Source: Planctomycetota bacterium (GTDB lineage: Bacteria; Planctomycetota; Phycisphaerae; Phycisphaerales; UBA1924). From it: 64,000 nucleotides of DNA. The DNA lies in assembly GCA_039819165.1 (NCBI GenBank), contig JBCBSM010000001.1:1488001-1552000 (forward strand), read 5' to 3'. Shown here piece after piece: positions 30,547-34,957 of this stretch. Each line of letters begins with the position of its first letter. Position 1 is the first letter of the stretch. A model generated the notes under the pieces. That model ran no database searches, was not told the DNA's origin, and worked only from the letters and a program-made list of their open reading frames with translations. Made by a program: the position numbers and the translations under genes.

Positions 30547-32061
30547 TCAGCCGCCAAGCAACCTTGTCAGTGTTGCCGCGTCCTCGTCGCTCAGCCGCAG
30601 CAGCACGGGCCAGAAGCCGCGGGCCGGATCGTCGACGATCAGCGTCGGGCCCGGCTGGCGGTTGTAGTCGGGCTGCACGCGGAGCTCGAGCCAGTCGTCG
30701 TCGATCACCAGGCGATCGCCCGAGGCTTCGTACGGCCGGGTGCCCAGGCCCAGGCTCGTCGCGTTGACGGCGTTGTCGAGGTCCATCTCCGCGATGCTCA
30801 CCAGCGACGCCGCGGCCCGCCTCGCCGTGACCTCGCTCATGCGGAGCACCAGCGCGACGCCCCGATCGCCCTCGGCGGTCAGCACGATCTCGTCATCGGC
30901 TCGCTTGATGTCGAACGACGGCTCGGACACCGTGCCGTGGTCGTGCCGATTGAAGGCCACGCCCTCCCTATGGATCTCGACGTCCACGCGGGACGGCGCG
31001 ATGCCCAGCAGCTCGGCCTCGAGCGCGTCGGCCAGGCCCCGCGGATCGCCGTCGGTGTTGGTGAGCACCGCGATGGTGGCGCCGCGATCCGGATAGCGCC
31101 GCCACTCGGCCAGGAACCCCCGCGTCGAGCCGCCGTGCGATCGTTTCGGCGTGCCGTCGGGCGCATCGAGGCCGATCCAGCCCAGCGCCATGGGCACGGG
31201 CCCCTCGATGGCGACCAGGTCCATCCGCTCGATGGACTCGGGTCGCAGCAGCGCCCCTTCCCGGCCGTCACGCGACGCGAGCAGTGCCGTGTGCAGCCGG
31301 GCGAGGTCGCCCGCGGAGGTCAGCACGCCGCCGGCTCCGCGGAGGCCCCAGCCCCAGCCGTCGTCGAGCAGGCCCCGCCGGATGCGCCGTCCCTGGGGCA
31401 TCACTTGTCGCACCGAGAAGCGATCGCCGTCCAGTGGGCCGTCCACGCCGCGCCCATCAAGGAAGCCGCTGGCGGTCATCCCGGCGGGCTCGAACACGCC
31501 CTCGCGGACGACGGCCTCGAAGCCCTGGCCCGTTGCGACCTCGATGGCCGCGGCCAGCAGCACGTAGCCCGCGTTGCTGTACGCCCAGCGTTCGCCCGGC
31601 GGGGACTGCCGCGGAGCCGCGAGCGCGAGGCGGACGGCCTCGTCGCGATCGTCGAGGTCGAGCCGCTGCAGCGCCCGGCGATCGTCGAGTCCGGCCGTGT
31701 GCGTCAGCAGATGGCGGATCGTGATCGCATCGCCGTCCTCGCCCGCGAGATCTCCGAAGAGGTCCCGCATCGTCGTCTCGAGCGTCAGCTGGCCGCGCTC
31801 GACGAGTTGCAGGACGGCGATCGCGGTGATCGGCTTGCTGACCGAGCCGATGTCGAACAGCGTGTCCGCGTCGATGGGGTCGAGGCTCTCGGGGTCCTGC
31901 AGGCCGAAGCCCTCGGCCAGCACGACCTCACCGCGATCGACCACCAGCACCGCGCCCCAGAAGGAGCCCAGCCGCTCGCGTTCAACGACGACGCGGTAGT
32001 CGGCGCTCGGCTGAGCAGCAACGGCGGTGGACGCGATTAGCACGATGAGCATGCGGAGCAT
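30547..32061 (-). CDS. Secreted serine beta-lactamase-like hydrolase
   Basis: 504 residues. A signal peptide (1-16, AVAAQ) is followed by a class C beta-lactamase/esterase fold with Ser73-Val-Ser-Lys76 (SxxK nucleophile), Tyr161-Ser-Asn163 (YxN) and a late HGGSTRGF that replaces KTG. After about residue 370 there is an additional domain of about 130 residues. Such proteins include esterases, D-amino-acid peptidases and PBP4-like enzymes; antibiotic hydrolysis cannot be inferred. The ATG has GGGAGGA upstream, and TAGACA about 12 nt before the start may be the -10 box. Confidence 0.85.
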   Translation of the reverse strand: MLRMLIVLIASTAVAAQPSADYRVVVERERLGSFWGAVLVVDRGEVVLAEGFGLQDPESLDPIDADTLFDIGSVSKPITAIAVLQLVERGQLTLETTMRDLFGDLAGEDGDAITIRHLLTHTAGLDDRRALQRLDLDDRDEAVRLALAAPRQSPPGERWAYSNAGYVLLAAAIEVATGQGFEAVVREGVFEPAGMTASGFLDGRGVDGPLDGDRFSVRQVMPQGRRIRRGLLDDGWGWGLRGAGGVLTSAGDLARLHTALLASRDGREGALLRPESIERMDLVAIEGPVPMALGWIGLDAPDGTPKRSHGGSTRGFLAEWRRYPDRGATIAVLTNTDGDPRGLADALEAELLGIAPSRVDVEIHREGVAFNRHDHGTVSEPSFDIKRADDEIVLTAEGDRGVALVLRMSEVTARRAAASLVSIAEMDLDNAVNATSLGLGTRPYEASGDRLVIDDDWLELRVQPDYNRQPGPTLIVDDPARGFWPVLLRLSDEDAATLTRLLGG

Positions 32062-32076
32062 GCGATCCTCCCGTGT

Positions 32077-33030
32077 CTAGTCCCGGTGCGCTCTGTGGCA
32101 CTCGATGCAGGACTGCGCAACCCGCTCGAGCTGTGCCGCAAGCCGCGCAGGCGTCGCGCGATCGAGCAGCATCTGCTCGAGGACCGAGGCGGCCTCGGCG
32201 CTCTCGACCATCATCGTCGCGAACGTGGCGCCGCGTGAATCGTCGTCCTCCGCGGAGACCCGCAGCGCATCCGCCAGGCGGCCGGCATCGGCTGCGGGCA
32301 CGAGGTCCGGATGCTCGGGCGGTGTCCGCCAGCCGGCCGCCTCGATCGTCCTCAGGTGCGCCAGGGCGTGATCGGCCTCGACCATGGCCGCCACGAGGCC
32401 CTCCGGCCGGAGGACCGAGGGGAACTCGCCATCGATCGCATCCAGGGCGGCGGGCGGGATCATGCTCGCGTCGGCCGCGCATGCGTAGAGCCCGGCGTAG
32501 TGCTCACTCGTGCCGCTCACCCGCATGCGGGCGAGCATGGCGTCGGCGTCGTCCATCCCGAGCGCGACCGCGATGACCGCCGCCGCCGCCGCGCTGCGGT
32601 GCTTGCCGTGGTGGCAATGGACGTACACCGGGCCGGCCCGCAGCGCGTCCCGGGCCGCCCGGGCCAGCTCGACGCAACGCTCCGGCGGGATGCCGTCGTA
32701 GCCGATGGGCAGGTGCACGTACCGCAGGCCGCGTGCCGCGGCGGCGTCGGCCTCGGGCGGCGCGGCGTCGACGCTGATGACCGTCCGCACGCCGAGGCTC
32801 CGCAGCGTGTCCAGGCCAGCGGGACGTCCGCCCTCGCGGTGCGGGGCCGACCCCGAGAGCAGGCCCGCGGCGAAGGCCACCACGTTGTCCAGGCCGGGCA
32901 TCGCGACCGGGATGGCGTGCGTCGGCTGAGGTAGTTGGGGGCCGGCGACCGCACCGCTCGCGGATGGCGATCGCCACGCCGACCAGCCGCAGGCCGACGC
33001 GAGCACGAAGCCACACAAGATCATCGCCAT
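32077..33030 (-). CDS. Exported tyrosine-phosphatase domain fused to a cytochrome c'-like domain
   Basis: 317 residues from the ATG at 33030; in-frame starts at 33042 and 33024 are equally possible. Residues 1-17 are a hydrophobic export signal, possibly a lipoprotein one (Cys14). Residues 65-200 form a phosphatase domain: VRTVISVDAAPPE, a candidate general acid Asp112, and the signature HCHHGKHRS (Cys139-X5-Arg145). Residues 205-317 are mostly helical and end QSCIECHRAH, a CxxCH heme c site (Cys308, Cys311, His312) near the C-terminus, as in four-helix cytochromes c'. The heme attachment implies a periplasmic location. The gene lies 47 bp after the MscS gene. Substrate and role are unknown. 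Confidence 0.75.
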   Translation of the reverse strand: MAMILCGFVLASACGWSAWRSPSASGAVAGPQLPQPTHAIPVAMPGLDNVVAFAAGLLSGSAPHREGGRPAGLDTLRSLGVRTVISVDAAPPEADAAAARGLRYVHLPIGYDGIPPERCVELARAARDALRAGPVYVHCHHGKHRSAAAAAVIAVALGMDDADAMLARMRVSGTSEHYAGLYACAADASMIPPAALDAIDGEFPSVLRPEGLVAAMVEADHALAHLRTIEAAGWRTPPEHPDLVPAADAGRLADALRVSAEDDDSRGATFATMMVESAEAASVLEQMLLDRATPARLAAQLERVAQSCIECHRAHRD

Positions 33031-33076
33031 CGCGCACCGCACGCCGGCATCCAACCGGCGAGGGCGGCGCGGGTTG

Positions 33077-34957
33077 CTACTTGGTGGCCGCGGCGGCGGC
33101 ATTGTCGCTGCGATCGTTCGTGGCATTGCCTGTGACCACGACCTCCAGCGGACCGGGCAGATGCAGATCCCGCTGCGGGAAGGGGATGCTGACGCCCTCC
33201 TTGTCGAAGGCCTGCTTCACGGACTGCATCAGGTCCCAGTATACGTCCCAGTAGTCGCTGGTTCGGCACCACGGACGGCAGACGATGTTGACCGAGTTGT
33301 CGCCGAGGGAATTCACCCGGATCGTCGGGGCGGGGTCGTCGAGCACCTTGGGGTGGGCCTCGACCTCGCGGGACAGGATGTCGCGGGCCTTGTCGATGTC
33401 GTTGGTGTAGGCGATGCCGAAGGTGAGGTCGACGCGGCGGGTGGGCAGCCCCGTGACGTTCGTGATGACGTTGCCCCAGACCTGGTTGTTGGGCACGTAG
33501 TTGATCTGGTTGTCGAAGGTCAGGATGGTGGTGGTGAACAGCGTGACCCGCTGCACCTTGCCCGTCACGCCGCCGGCATCCACGACGTCGCCGACGTCGA
33601 ACGGCCGGAGGAAGAGGATCAGGATGCCGCTGGCGAAGTTGCTCAGCGTGCCCTGGAGCGCCAGGCCGATGACCAGGCCGGCGGCGCCGATGGCGGCGAT
33701 GAGCGGCCCGATGTCGACGCCCGCGTTGTCCAGCGCCACCACGAGCCCGACCAGCAGAATCAACCGCCGCGTGCCCGCGACCAGGAACTGCCGCAGCAGC
33801 TGGCTGCTCCGCTTGGAGCGGACGAGCGCGGCGCTGATGGCCTTGGCCGCGAGCCGGGCGACGACCCAGAAGATGCCGAGCGTGAAGATGAAGCCGAGCA
33901 CGCTCAGGCCGAAGGCGATGCCGCCCGTCTCGCTGGTCAGCCAGTTGGAGAACATGGTGCGGACCTGCTGGACCAGCACTACCGGATCCCAGATGTTGAG
34001 CCGCTGGCCCGTCGCGTTGGCGATGTACTTCTTGGCCGCCGACGCGTCGCCGCCGCGCTGCTCGAAGGTCTTGACCACCACGCGGATGCGATCGACGATC
34101 GCGTCGATGACCGCCTGCTGCTCGCCGCTCCGCTCGGCCAGCGCCGCCCGCACCTCGGCGCTCTGGGCGCGGCTGCTGGCGGCTATGTCCAGGCGGATCC
34201 GAACGCGGACCTGCTGCTGCAGCAGGCCGAGCCACGCCTCGATCCGCTCCTCGATCTGCGTCGCCCGCAGCGGCTGCAGTTCGAGTTGCAGTTCCGAGAT
34301 CGATACCGTCCAGGGCTCGGCACGCTGGTGCACCGGCGGGTCGGCCTGCACCGCGCTCACCAGCGCGTCGACGCGGTCCGACAGCGCCTCCTCCTCGGGC
34401 TTGGCCTCGGGCTCTTCGGCCCGGGCGGGCGGCTTGCCGGCGACCTCGATCGCCGCCACGCCGCCGACGTACGCCAGGTCCTGGGCGACATCGATGCCGC
34501 GATCCCGCAGGGCCTCGAGCGTCAGCCGCGCCCGCACCGCCACCTCGTTGCGGAGCCGCTCGAGGGTGGCCAGCAACTCCCGCGTGGCGTCGTCGATGGG
34601 CGTGCCCGCGGCCTCGCCCCGCCGCGCCTGGACGTTGGCCTCCACCAGCGACTCGCCGATGACGCGGAGCATCTCCACGCTCCGCTCGCCGTGGGCCTGC
34701 AACTCGTCGAGCGGCAGCACGACCAGCCGCTGGCGGTACTCGCTAACCGGCGTGCGGATGAACGCGGCCGCGTCCCCGCCCGTCGGATCGAAGCGCTGGA
34801 TGGCATCCTCGGGCGATGGCGCGTCCGCCTGTGGCGACGCTCCGGCTTGCTCGGCTGCATCGCCGCCGTTCTGGGACATGGCGAGCGTCGACGGCGACGC
34901 CGCCAGCAGCGCCACTACGACCAACCCCACGACGCAAGCCAGCTCGCGCATCCGCAC
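33077..34957 (-). CDS. MscS-family mechanosensitive channel with large N-terminal domain
   Basis: 626 residues. A signal peptide (1-26) is followed by a long, mostly helical periplasmic region (about 30-335) with an Ala/Glu-rich segment. Membrane helices at about 345-370 and 395-415 precede the pore helix GLVIGLALQGTLSNFASGILILF, then the beta domain (RPFDVGDVVDAGGVTGKVQ, VPNNQVWGNVITN) and the alpha/beta C-terminal domain. Such channels release solutes during osmotic downshock. The gene is divergent from the S9 peptidase over 168 bp and precedes the phosphatase-cytochrome gene. Confidence 0.93.
   Translation of the reverse strand: MRMRELACVVGLVVVALLAASPSTLAMSQNGGDAAEQAGASPQADAPSPEDAIQRFDPTGGDAAAFIRTPVSEYRQRLVVLPLDELQAHGERSVEMLRVIGESLVEANVQARRGEAAGTPIDDATRELLATLERLRNEVAVRARLTLEALRDRGIDVAQDLAYVGGVAAIEVAGKPPARAEEPEAKPEEEALSDRVDALVSAVQADPPVHQRAEPWTVSISELQLELQPLRATQIEERIEAWLGLLQQQVRVRIRLDIAASSRAQSAEVRAALAERSGEQQAVIDAIVDRIRVVVKTFEQRGGDASAAKKYIANATGQRLNIWDPVVLVQQVRTMFSNWLTSETGGIAFGLSVLGFIFTLGIFWVVARLAAKAISAALVRSKRSSQLLRQFLVAGTRRLILLVGLVVALDNAGVDIGPLIAAIGAAGLVIGLALQGTLSNFASGILILFLRPFDVGDVVDAGGVTGKVQRVTLFTTTILTFDNQINYVPNNQVWGNVITNVTGLPTRRVDLTFGIAYTNDIDKARDILSREVEAHPKVLDDPAPTIRVNSLGDNSVNIVCRPWCRTSDYWDVYWDLMQSVKQAFDKEGVSIPFPQRDLHLPGPLEVVVTGNATNDRSDNAAAAATK

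Follow-up and report, generated by a model that had tools for sequence, protein, structure and literature searches.

The locus and its protein

In the window, by which we mean the whole 64,000-nucleotide stretch of DNA that was analysed, one open reading frame on the reverse strand (32077..33042) encodes a single protein that joins an export signal, a cysteine-phosphatase-like domain and a cytochrome c-type domain. The frame runs from a GTG start at 33042 and specifies 321 amino acids, an alternative ATG start at 33030 giving 317. All residue numbers below are counted from the GTG, whereas the preliminary description counted from the ATG; its Cys139 and Arg145 are thus our Cys143 and Arg149, within the motif HCHHGKHRS at 142-150, and its heme motif at 308-312 is our CIECH at 312-316. 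Allowing for this shift, the fusion frame (317 aa from ATG 33030), the motif positions and their order all agree with that description. Shuffling the protein's own residues (n = 20,000) produced CxxCH by chance in 0.5% and HCX5R[ST] in 0.25% of cases, and beyond these frequencies it is conservation among relatives that decides that the motif pair is real.

The protein begins with a brief hydrophobic segment up to a lipobox-like Cys18 (VRCAMAMILCGFVLASA|C), which we read as a probable lipoprotein signal peptide (lipobox ASA|C18; 32989..33042, reverse strand). A loose pattern scan, run with no control, found a lipobox in the window protein and in 46 of 80 relatives; the 34 others include three members with a glutathione peroxidase fused in front (L063, L072, L080) and one whose frame is open at the contig end (L076). 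The earlier reading of the hydrophobic N-terminus as an export signal is retained on sequence grounds, with its type revised to a lipoprotein signal ending at Cys18, and the protein is probably both exported and lipid-anchored.

On the same strand, an MscS gene lies upstream, ending at 33077, 34 bases before the GTG. Downstream, a gene for a beta-lactamase-fold serine hydrolase (30547-32061) starts 15 bases past the stop of the fusion gene.

Distribution and joint conservation of the two halves

A search of 61 genomes, the window's own included, gave matches in 27, of which 25 (again counting its own) had E<=6.9e-32. Six other genomes of the window's genus yielded no match to the fusion gene in that 61-genome search, which indicates that the gene is dispensable there, and a profile search added a weak match (E 1.9e-5) in one of these congeners (G005) and a second match in the window's own genome. 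A pattern scan of 84,980 species genomes returned 506 relatives. Among the best 80 of the 506, which were kept, 74 have titles that we assign by eye to planctomycete groups, 3 are titled 'uncultured bacterium' and 3 name other groups; the last three are taken for mislabelled MAGs. In 392 Planctomycetota genomes there were 199 with a match; 136 rows (135 genomes, own included) had E<=6.1e-39 and 131 of these rows extended to at least position 272 of 282, such that by our own count of the listing about one third of these genomes carry a near full-length copy. The two scans support the planctomycete family for which a search had been proposed.

From these searches 147 frames were taken as matches, some representing one gene fetched twice, and 145 of them carry [HT]CxxGxxR. 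The remaining two (L026, L028) are DUF442-like sequences with a short loop and no CX5R, and were excluded from the family. Removal of core-identical entries left 130 rows: 24 from the relatives search, 69 from the genome_contigs set, 36 from the phylum search (drawn from 40 regions chosen by hand) and the window protein. Both motifs are present in 123 of the 130 (CxxCH in 122 within the aligned columns, plus the misaligned L155), so that CxxCH and the phosphatase Cys and Arg are indeed kept together in orthologues, as the preliminary description required of a genuine fusion. Four of the seven rows lacking CxxCH are cut by contig ends (L018, L122, L156, L157). The other three (L159, L160, L161) are phosphatase-only, with no cytochrome domain in the same frame, and their loops read HCHAGRHR, HCKNGKHR and HCHHGKHR, respectively.

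Distances within the two halves are strongly correlated over 122 rows (Mantel r 0.83; 999 shuffles gave no value above 0.25), so the halves have apparently been passed on together. The predicted structure (see below) has a pTM of 0.83, which points to a fixed arrangement of the domains relative to each other. We regard the architecture of phosphatase plus cytochrome as firm so far as sequence and prediction go. Our literature search, which took in few subscription journals, found no description of a phosphatase-cytochrome fusion, and as far as such searches go the architecture is undescribed.

A search of 72,556 plasmid records gave two matches; each comes from a named isolate and has HCHHGKHR and CxxCH. 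The Aquisphaera giovannonii record is annotated as 'dual specificity protein phosphatase' and that of Planctomyces sp. SH-PL62 as 'hypothetical protein', and consequently the cytochrome half has been missed in those two records. On the SH-PL62 plasmid (L170:5942-8870), cytochrome c oxidase genes about 2 kb off and a DUF3365 gene lie near the family gene.

The phosphatase domain

Residues 48-205 (32428..32901, reverse strand) make up a predicted CX5R phosphatase-fold domain of the TpbA/DSP-like kind, an assignment drawn from Pfam, a PDB match and a model with fold searches. The window protein scores 26.4 bits against Pfam Y_phosphatase3, above the cut-off of 22.2, and lies below the Pfam cut-offs for PTP-SAK, Tc-R-P and BLH_phosphatase. 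At E<=0.01, 71 of 80 members match PTP-SAK, 66 Tc-R-P and 26 PTP-NADK, families for which the window protein is below cut-off and whose settings, judged from Pfam names and descriptions, are different. In a PDB search TpbA was matched at E 2.2e-6 with the window protein and at E 8.6e-11 with the family profile. An AlphaFold2 model of residues 41-321 (mean pLDDT 95.9, pTM 0.83) returned TpbA first in Foldseek (E 1.4e-5), and near the top of a VIA-align comparison stood DUSP23/VHZ (Z 16.9, 2.6 Å over 143 residues) and TpbA (Z 16.1, 3.2 Å over 155). The model and the fold searches thus both give the PTP fold of CX5R cysteine phosphatases.

TpbA (PA3885), a periplasmic dual-specificity phosphatase of Pseudomonas aeruginosa, is the nearest solved structure both by sequence and by Foldseek. 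Like the fusion family it is exported and has a CX5R loop (HCKHGNNR); unlike the family it comes from a different phylum, lacks a heme domain and has Asp105 as general acid, where Asp or Asn is found here.

The P-loop of the window protein, H142-C143-H-H-G-K-H-R149 (32596..32619, reverse strand), has the H-C-X5-R form throughout the family, with Cys143, the Gly and Arg149 in 130 of 130 rows and His142 in 129. These rows were selected by [HT]CxxGxxR, and since only L026 and L028 among the 147 frames lack the pattern, the selection that leaves CxxGxxR in all 130 rows cost no family frame; the genome_contigs loci were found with patterns of which one holds HCHHG, so their P-loop conservation is biased, while CxxCH was in no search pattern. 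Besides the His-rich loop itself, Tyr115 (130/130) and Asp92 (128/130) are near-invariant.

Loop length distinguishes the family from its sulfur-handling relatives. CX5R is shared with TpbA and 25xa, whereas the DUF442 structure 3gxg aligns as HC-LANY-R with a one-residue gap, giving CX4R. The DUF442/Blh sulfurtransferase domain, which comes with no cytochrome, is similar in having a PTP fold and cysteine chemistry; in Blh it is fused to a sulfur dioxygenase, the PTP-fold domain being a proven sulfurtransferase (PMC5823870). A review lists CX4R/T and CX5R as active rhodanese-type loops and assigns the HCX5R form to the phosphatase Cdc25 (PMC10135228), and on that basis a CX5R loop length favours phosphate chemistry. 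Membership of a sulfurtransferase family (weak matches to TIGR01244 and NF040641; PF04273) was considered and kept only as a rival, the loop being CX5R.

The general acid is more variable. The window protein has Asp116 at the position of TpbA D105, and across 122 full-length rows this position holds Asp in 51, Asn in 47 and Ser in 12; position 119 is acidic in 70, and 28 have no acid at either. In TpbA itself the D105A exchange reportedly costs 53% of catalytic efficiency (PMC4409338), so the fusion protein could still be a phosphatase despite its variable acid. Asp116 occurs in 12 of the 18 rows without Pro245-Asp246, a pair in the cytochrome half, versus 39 of the 104 rows with it; these counts are suggestive of the cytochrome His-Pro-Asp loop standing in for the acid, but are confounded by descent, and we make no such claim. 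Judged from sequence and model, the CX5R domain most likely acts as a phosphatase.

The cytochrome domain and its heme

Residues 208-321 (32080..32421, reverse strand) are predicted to form a four-helix bundle of the class II cytochrome c type, as indicated by models, profile searches and fold searches. In the numbering of the trimmed model the helices span 175-195, 209-226, 228-253 and 258-279, with CxxCH at 272-276 and therefore in the last of them. The check that had been proposed asked for four bundled helices, the last of them bearing CxxCH; this is the arrangement that the AlphaFold2 model (mean pLDDT 95.9) and the alignment display, as in class II cytochromes c. The putative heme attachment motif itself, C312-I-E-C315-H316 (32095..32109, reverse strand), is present in 123 of 130 rows and is followed four residues on, in the same helix, by an Arg.

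Against Pfam Cytochrom_C_2 the window protein reaches 18.8 bits (cut-off 26.5) and one relative (L003) 29.0 bits; 72 of 80 members match at E<=0.01, and the Aquisphaera member has no match at that threshold. The family profile finds cytochrome c' in the PDB at E 8.6e-5. A further profile search also gave class II cytochromes; its top four rows (designed PPR repeats), none with a stretch passing the limit, were disregarded. When the bundle was modelled alone (pLDDT 91.7), VIA-align placed it on the Kuenenia Kusta0087/Kusta0088 complex (Z 13.6, 2.4 Å over 102 residues), Shewanella violacea c' (Z 13.0, 2.0 Å over 101) and b562/cb562 (Z 12.2-12.9), Z values that helical bundles can reach through their common arrangement; Foldseek with this C-terminal model gave no match at E<=0.001 (best E 0.23). 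Because the Z values are unspecific and Foldseek alone is weak, the class II assignment is based on fold, motif and profile together.

Met220 (32383..32385, reverse strand), in the first bundle helix, is invariant in all 122 full-length rows and is our proposed distal heme ligand, its position being inferred from aligned ranges. On the assumption of no gap after the first aligned residues, Met220 (model residue 13) corresponds to chain A residue 32 in the Kusta0087/0088 entries (the C32 that their titles list, beside C101, as mutated, provided that C32 lies on this chain), to residue 7 of b562, which we take to be the heme ligand Met7, and to residue 16 of Shewanella frigidimarina c', presumably the distal position. 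Two alignments speak against this placement: in Shewanella violacea c' the VIA-align range sets Met220 at residue 17, not 16, and a profile alignment with cb562 (16-116 on chain 7-106) puts b562 Met7 about one helix turn past Met220. Since Met220 is both invariant and close to the distal-ligand position, the heme is better read as six-coordinate, His/Met-ligated and devoted to electron transfer, in the manner of c556 or b562, than as a gas-binding c'. Of the cytochrome c'-like domain originally suggested, the class II character stands, and the c' type, with its five-coordinate heme and no strong distal ligand, is judged unlikely because of Met220.

Class II cytochromes c, including cytochrome c', c556, Kusta0087/0088 of Kuenenia and heme-wired b562, share with this domain the four-helix bundle, the C-terminal CxxCH, a similar length and, on or close to the distal site, a residue from helix 1. 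They differ in being stand-alone proteins or cytochrome-cytochrome pairs, whereas here the bundle is fused to a phosphatase and mostly has a Trp...His-Pro-Asp loop between helices 1 and 2, with Trp238 in 109 and Pro245-Asp246 in 104 of 122 rows (lost in 18). Attachment of c-type heme appears possible in the host, as contig 2 of its genome carries cytochrome c maturation genes, one ResB-like and one CcsA-like, no more than 3 kb apart, the ResB-like match being weak (E 1.3e-4) and over its cut-off with its neighbours.

Gene neighbourhood

The MscS gene and the downstream hydrolase of the window have no relative in 104 loci of the family (93 distinct places, with a mean length of about 11 kb; tblastn E<=1e-4). 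Among the six congeners, identity to this MscS is 37-41% in the best matches, over the C-terminal part, and a relative of the hydrolase more than 50% identical occurs in just one (G001, 56%); from these weak matches, the block of MscS, fusion gene and hydrolase looks particular to the window's genome.

No conserved operon or widely recurring neighbour was found among 81 loci compared and 105 loci grouped. The largest neighbour groups beside the family comprise 16, 14, 11 and 8 of the 105 loci, with no fixed place next to the gene; the group of 14 consists of ABC ATPases, and those of 16 and 11 look like wrong-frame translations. Genes were called for this grouping with a home-made GC3 rule, which failed to pick up the family gene at 16 of 105 loci, and weak links could escape it. 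By eye, and with the neighbour groups partly identified, no sulfur or arsenic genes were seen to recur beside the family gene. Without a shared neighbourhood there is no pointer to a substrate or partner. Six of the 81 loci (L055, L059, L095, L100, L120, L121) have, some 2-4 kb upstream and in opposite orientation, a pump that we take for a heavy-metal RND type.

Possible function

Cysteine-dependent phosphatases can be switched by oxidation, and to our knowledge no cysteine phosphatase bears its own covalent heme. From the features above we infer heme attachment, His/Met ligation, phosphatase activity and a coupling between the domains, and heme gating of the phosphatase would be the simplest use for such a pair. 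Under this hypothesis the protein would be a periplasmic, probably lipid-anchored enzyme, in which a TpbA-like cysteine phosphatase is combined with a class II cytochrome c domain bearing a single covalent heme, with His316 and probably Met220 as axial ligands. Phosphate would be removed from a periplasmic or envelope substrate through Cys143 and Arg149, and the heme, oxidised or reduced by a periplasmic electron-transfer chain, would tune that activity, whether by holding the exposed catalytic cysteine in its reduced form or through a shape change conveyed by the helix 1-2 loop (Trp238, His244-Pro-Asp246). We give this reading, a TpbA-like phosphatase whose activity follows the redox state of its class II heme, a probability of a little under one half. 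Such a pair in one chain, found across planctomycetes, would offer a direct way to ask whether respiratory electron flow is coupled to dephosphorylation in the envelope, and a handle on the role of periplasmic phosphorylation in these bacteria.

We entertain tentatively a more intimate arrangement, in which electrons would pass directly between the heme and the P-loop cysteine, or a substrate bound on it, making the protein a heme-wired cysteine enzyme. If true, this would place a tyrosine-phosphatase fold within a periplasmic electron-transfer chain, whether as a redox-gated phosphatase or as a new oxidoreductase.

It is unlikely, in our estimation, that the CX5R domain is instead a thiol oxidoreductase and no phosphatase at all. 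In that case Cys143 would form an intermediate with an oxidised form of sulfur, with arsenate or a similar oxyanion, or with the oxidised thiol of a partner, and the heme would deliver or withdraw the electrons. The variable general-acid position beside a nearly invariant Tyr115, Asp92 and His-rich loop would suit such chemistry, as would the glutathione peroxidase fused in front in one genus, the sulfurtransferase activity proven for a PTP-fold DUF442 domain (PMC5823870) and the report that Cdc25 proteins with HCX5R catalyse phosphatase as well as arsenate reductase reactions (PMC10135228). Yet the loop is of the phosphatase type rather than the CX4R of 3gxg, the partial loss reported for TpbA D105A (PMC4409338) implies that a missing acid is not fatal, and the neighbourhoods, read by eye with their groups partly identified, hold no recurring sulfur or arsenic genes.

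A mere tether, in which an ordinary periplasmic phosphatase (e.g. for phosphate scavenging) and an electron carrier share one anchor with no mutual influence, would accommodate the three phosphatase-only relatives and a gene context that is not widely shared, but is distinctly unlikely given that 123 of 130 rows retain the pair, that its halves co-vary and that the helix 1-2 loop persists in most members, though it is lost in 18 of 122. More doubtful again is a pseudo-phosphatase whose P-loop binds a phosphorylated or anionic ligand without turnover, the protein serving as a redox or ligand sensor: the unconserved general acid, the heavily histidine-substituted P-loop and the drifted loop of one exchanger-fused member that keeps its CxxCH (described below) are consistent with it, whereas Cys143 and Arg149, present in all 145 family frames, would be needless in a binding-only domain.

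That the C-terminal CxxCH binds a metal or forms a disulfide, on a bundle of helices lacking heme, as the window protein's sub-threshold Cytochrom_C_2 score, the Foldseek result for the C-terminal model and the unmatched Aquisphaera member might suggest, is very improbable in view of the last-helix CxxCH with its Arg, the Cytochrom_C_2 matches of 72 of 80 members, the class II cytochromes in the profile searches and the invariant first-helix Met. Least credible is a partnership with the adjoining same-strand MscS channel, a link floated in the preliminary description that we abandon, as MscS relatives are absent from the 104 loci (93 distinct places) and reach only 37-41% identity in the six congeners.

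Further fusions and contrasting forms

In four genomes of one genus (G039, G043, G047, G055) a glutathione peroxidase, each with its active-site cysteine (CGYT), is fused in front of the family protein, which fits thiol or redox control. These fusions are exported and in frame (L006:883-2370, L004:670-2376, L007:1501-3033, L009:838-2373), and a fifth genome of that genus (G059, L010) is without one. In G032 (L026), by contrast to the CX5R family, one frame holds a rhodanese-like domain (read by eye) and, after it, a DUF442-like one whose loop is short (HCSSGGR).

Transporters are also found joined to the family protein. In G058 (L022:3415-5772) a Na-dependent nucleoside transporter carries it as a C-terminal extension. 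In G318 (L147:979-2886) it is fused to a Na/Ca exchanger, and there the P-loop has drifted to TCETGRDR with CxxCH retained; Pfam sees only the exchanger in this protein, the remainder being found by the family profile.
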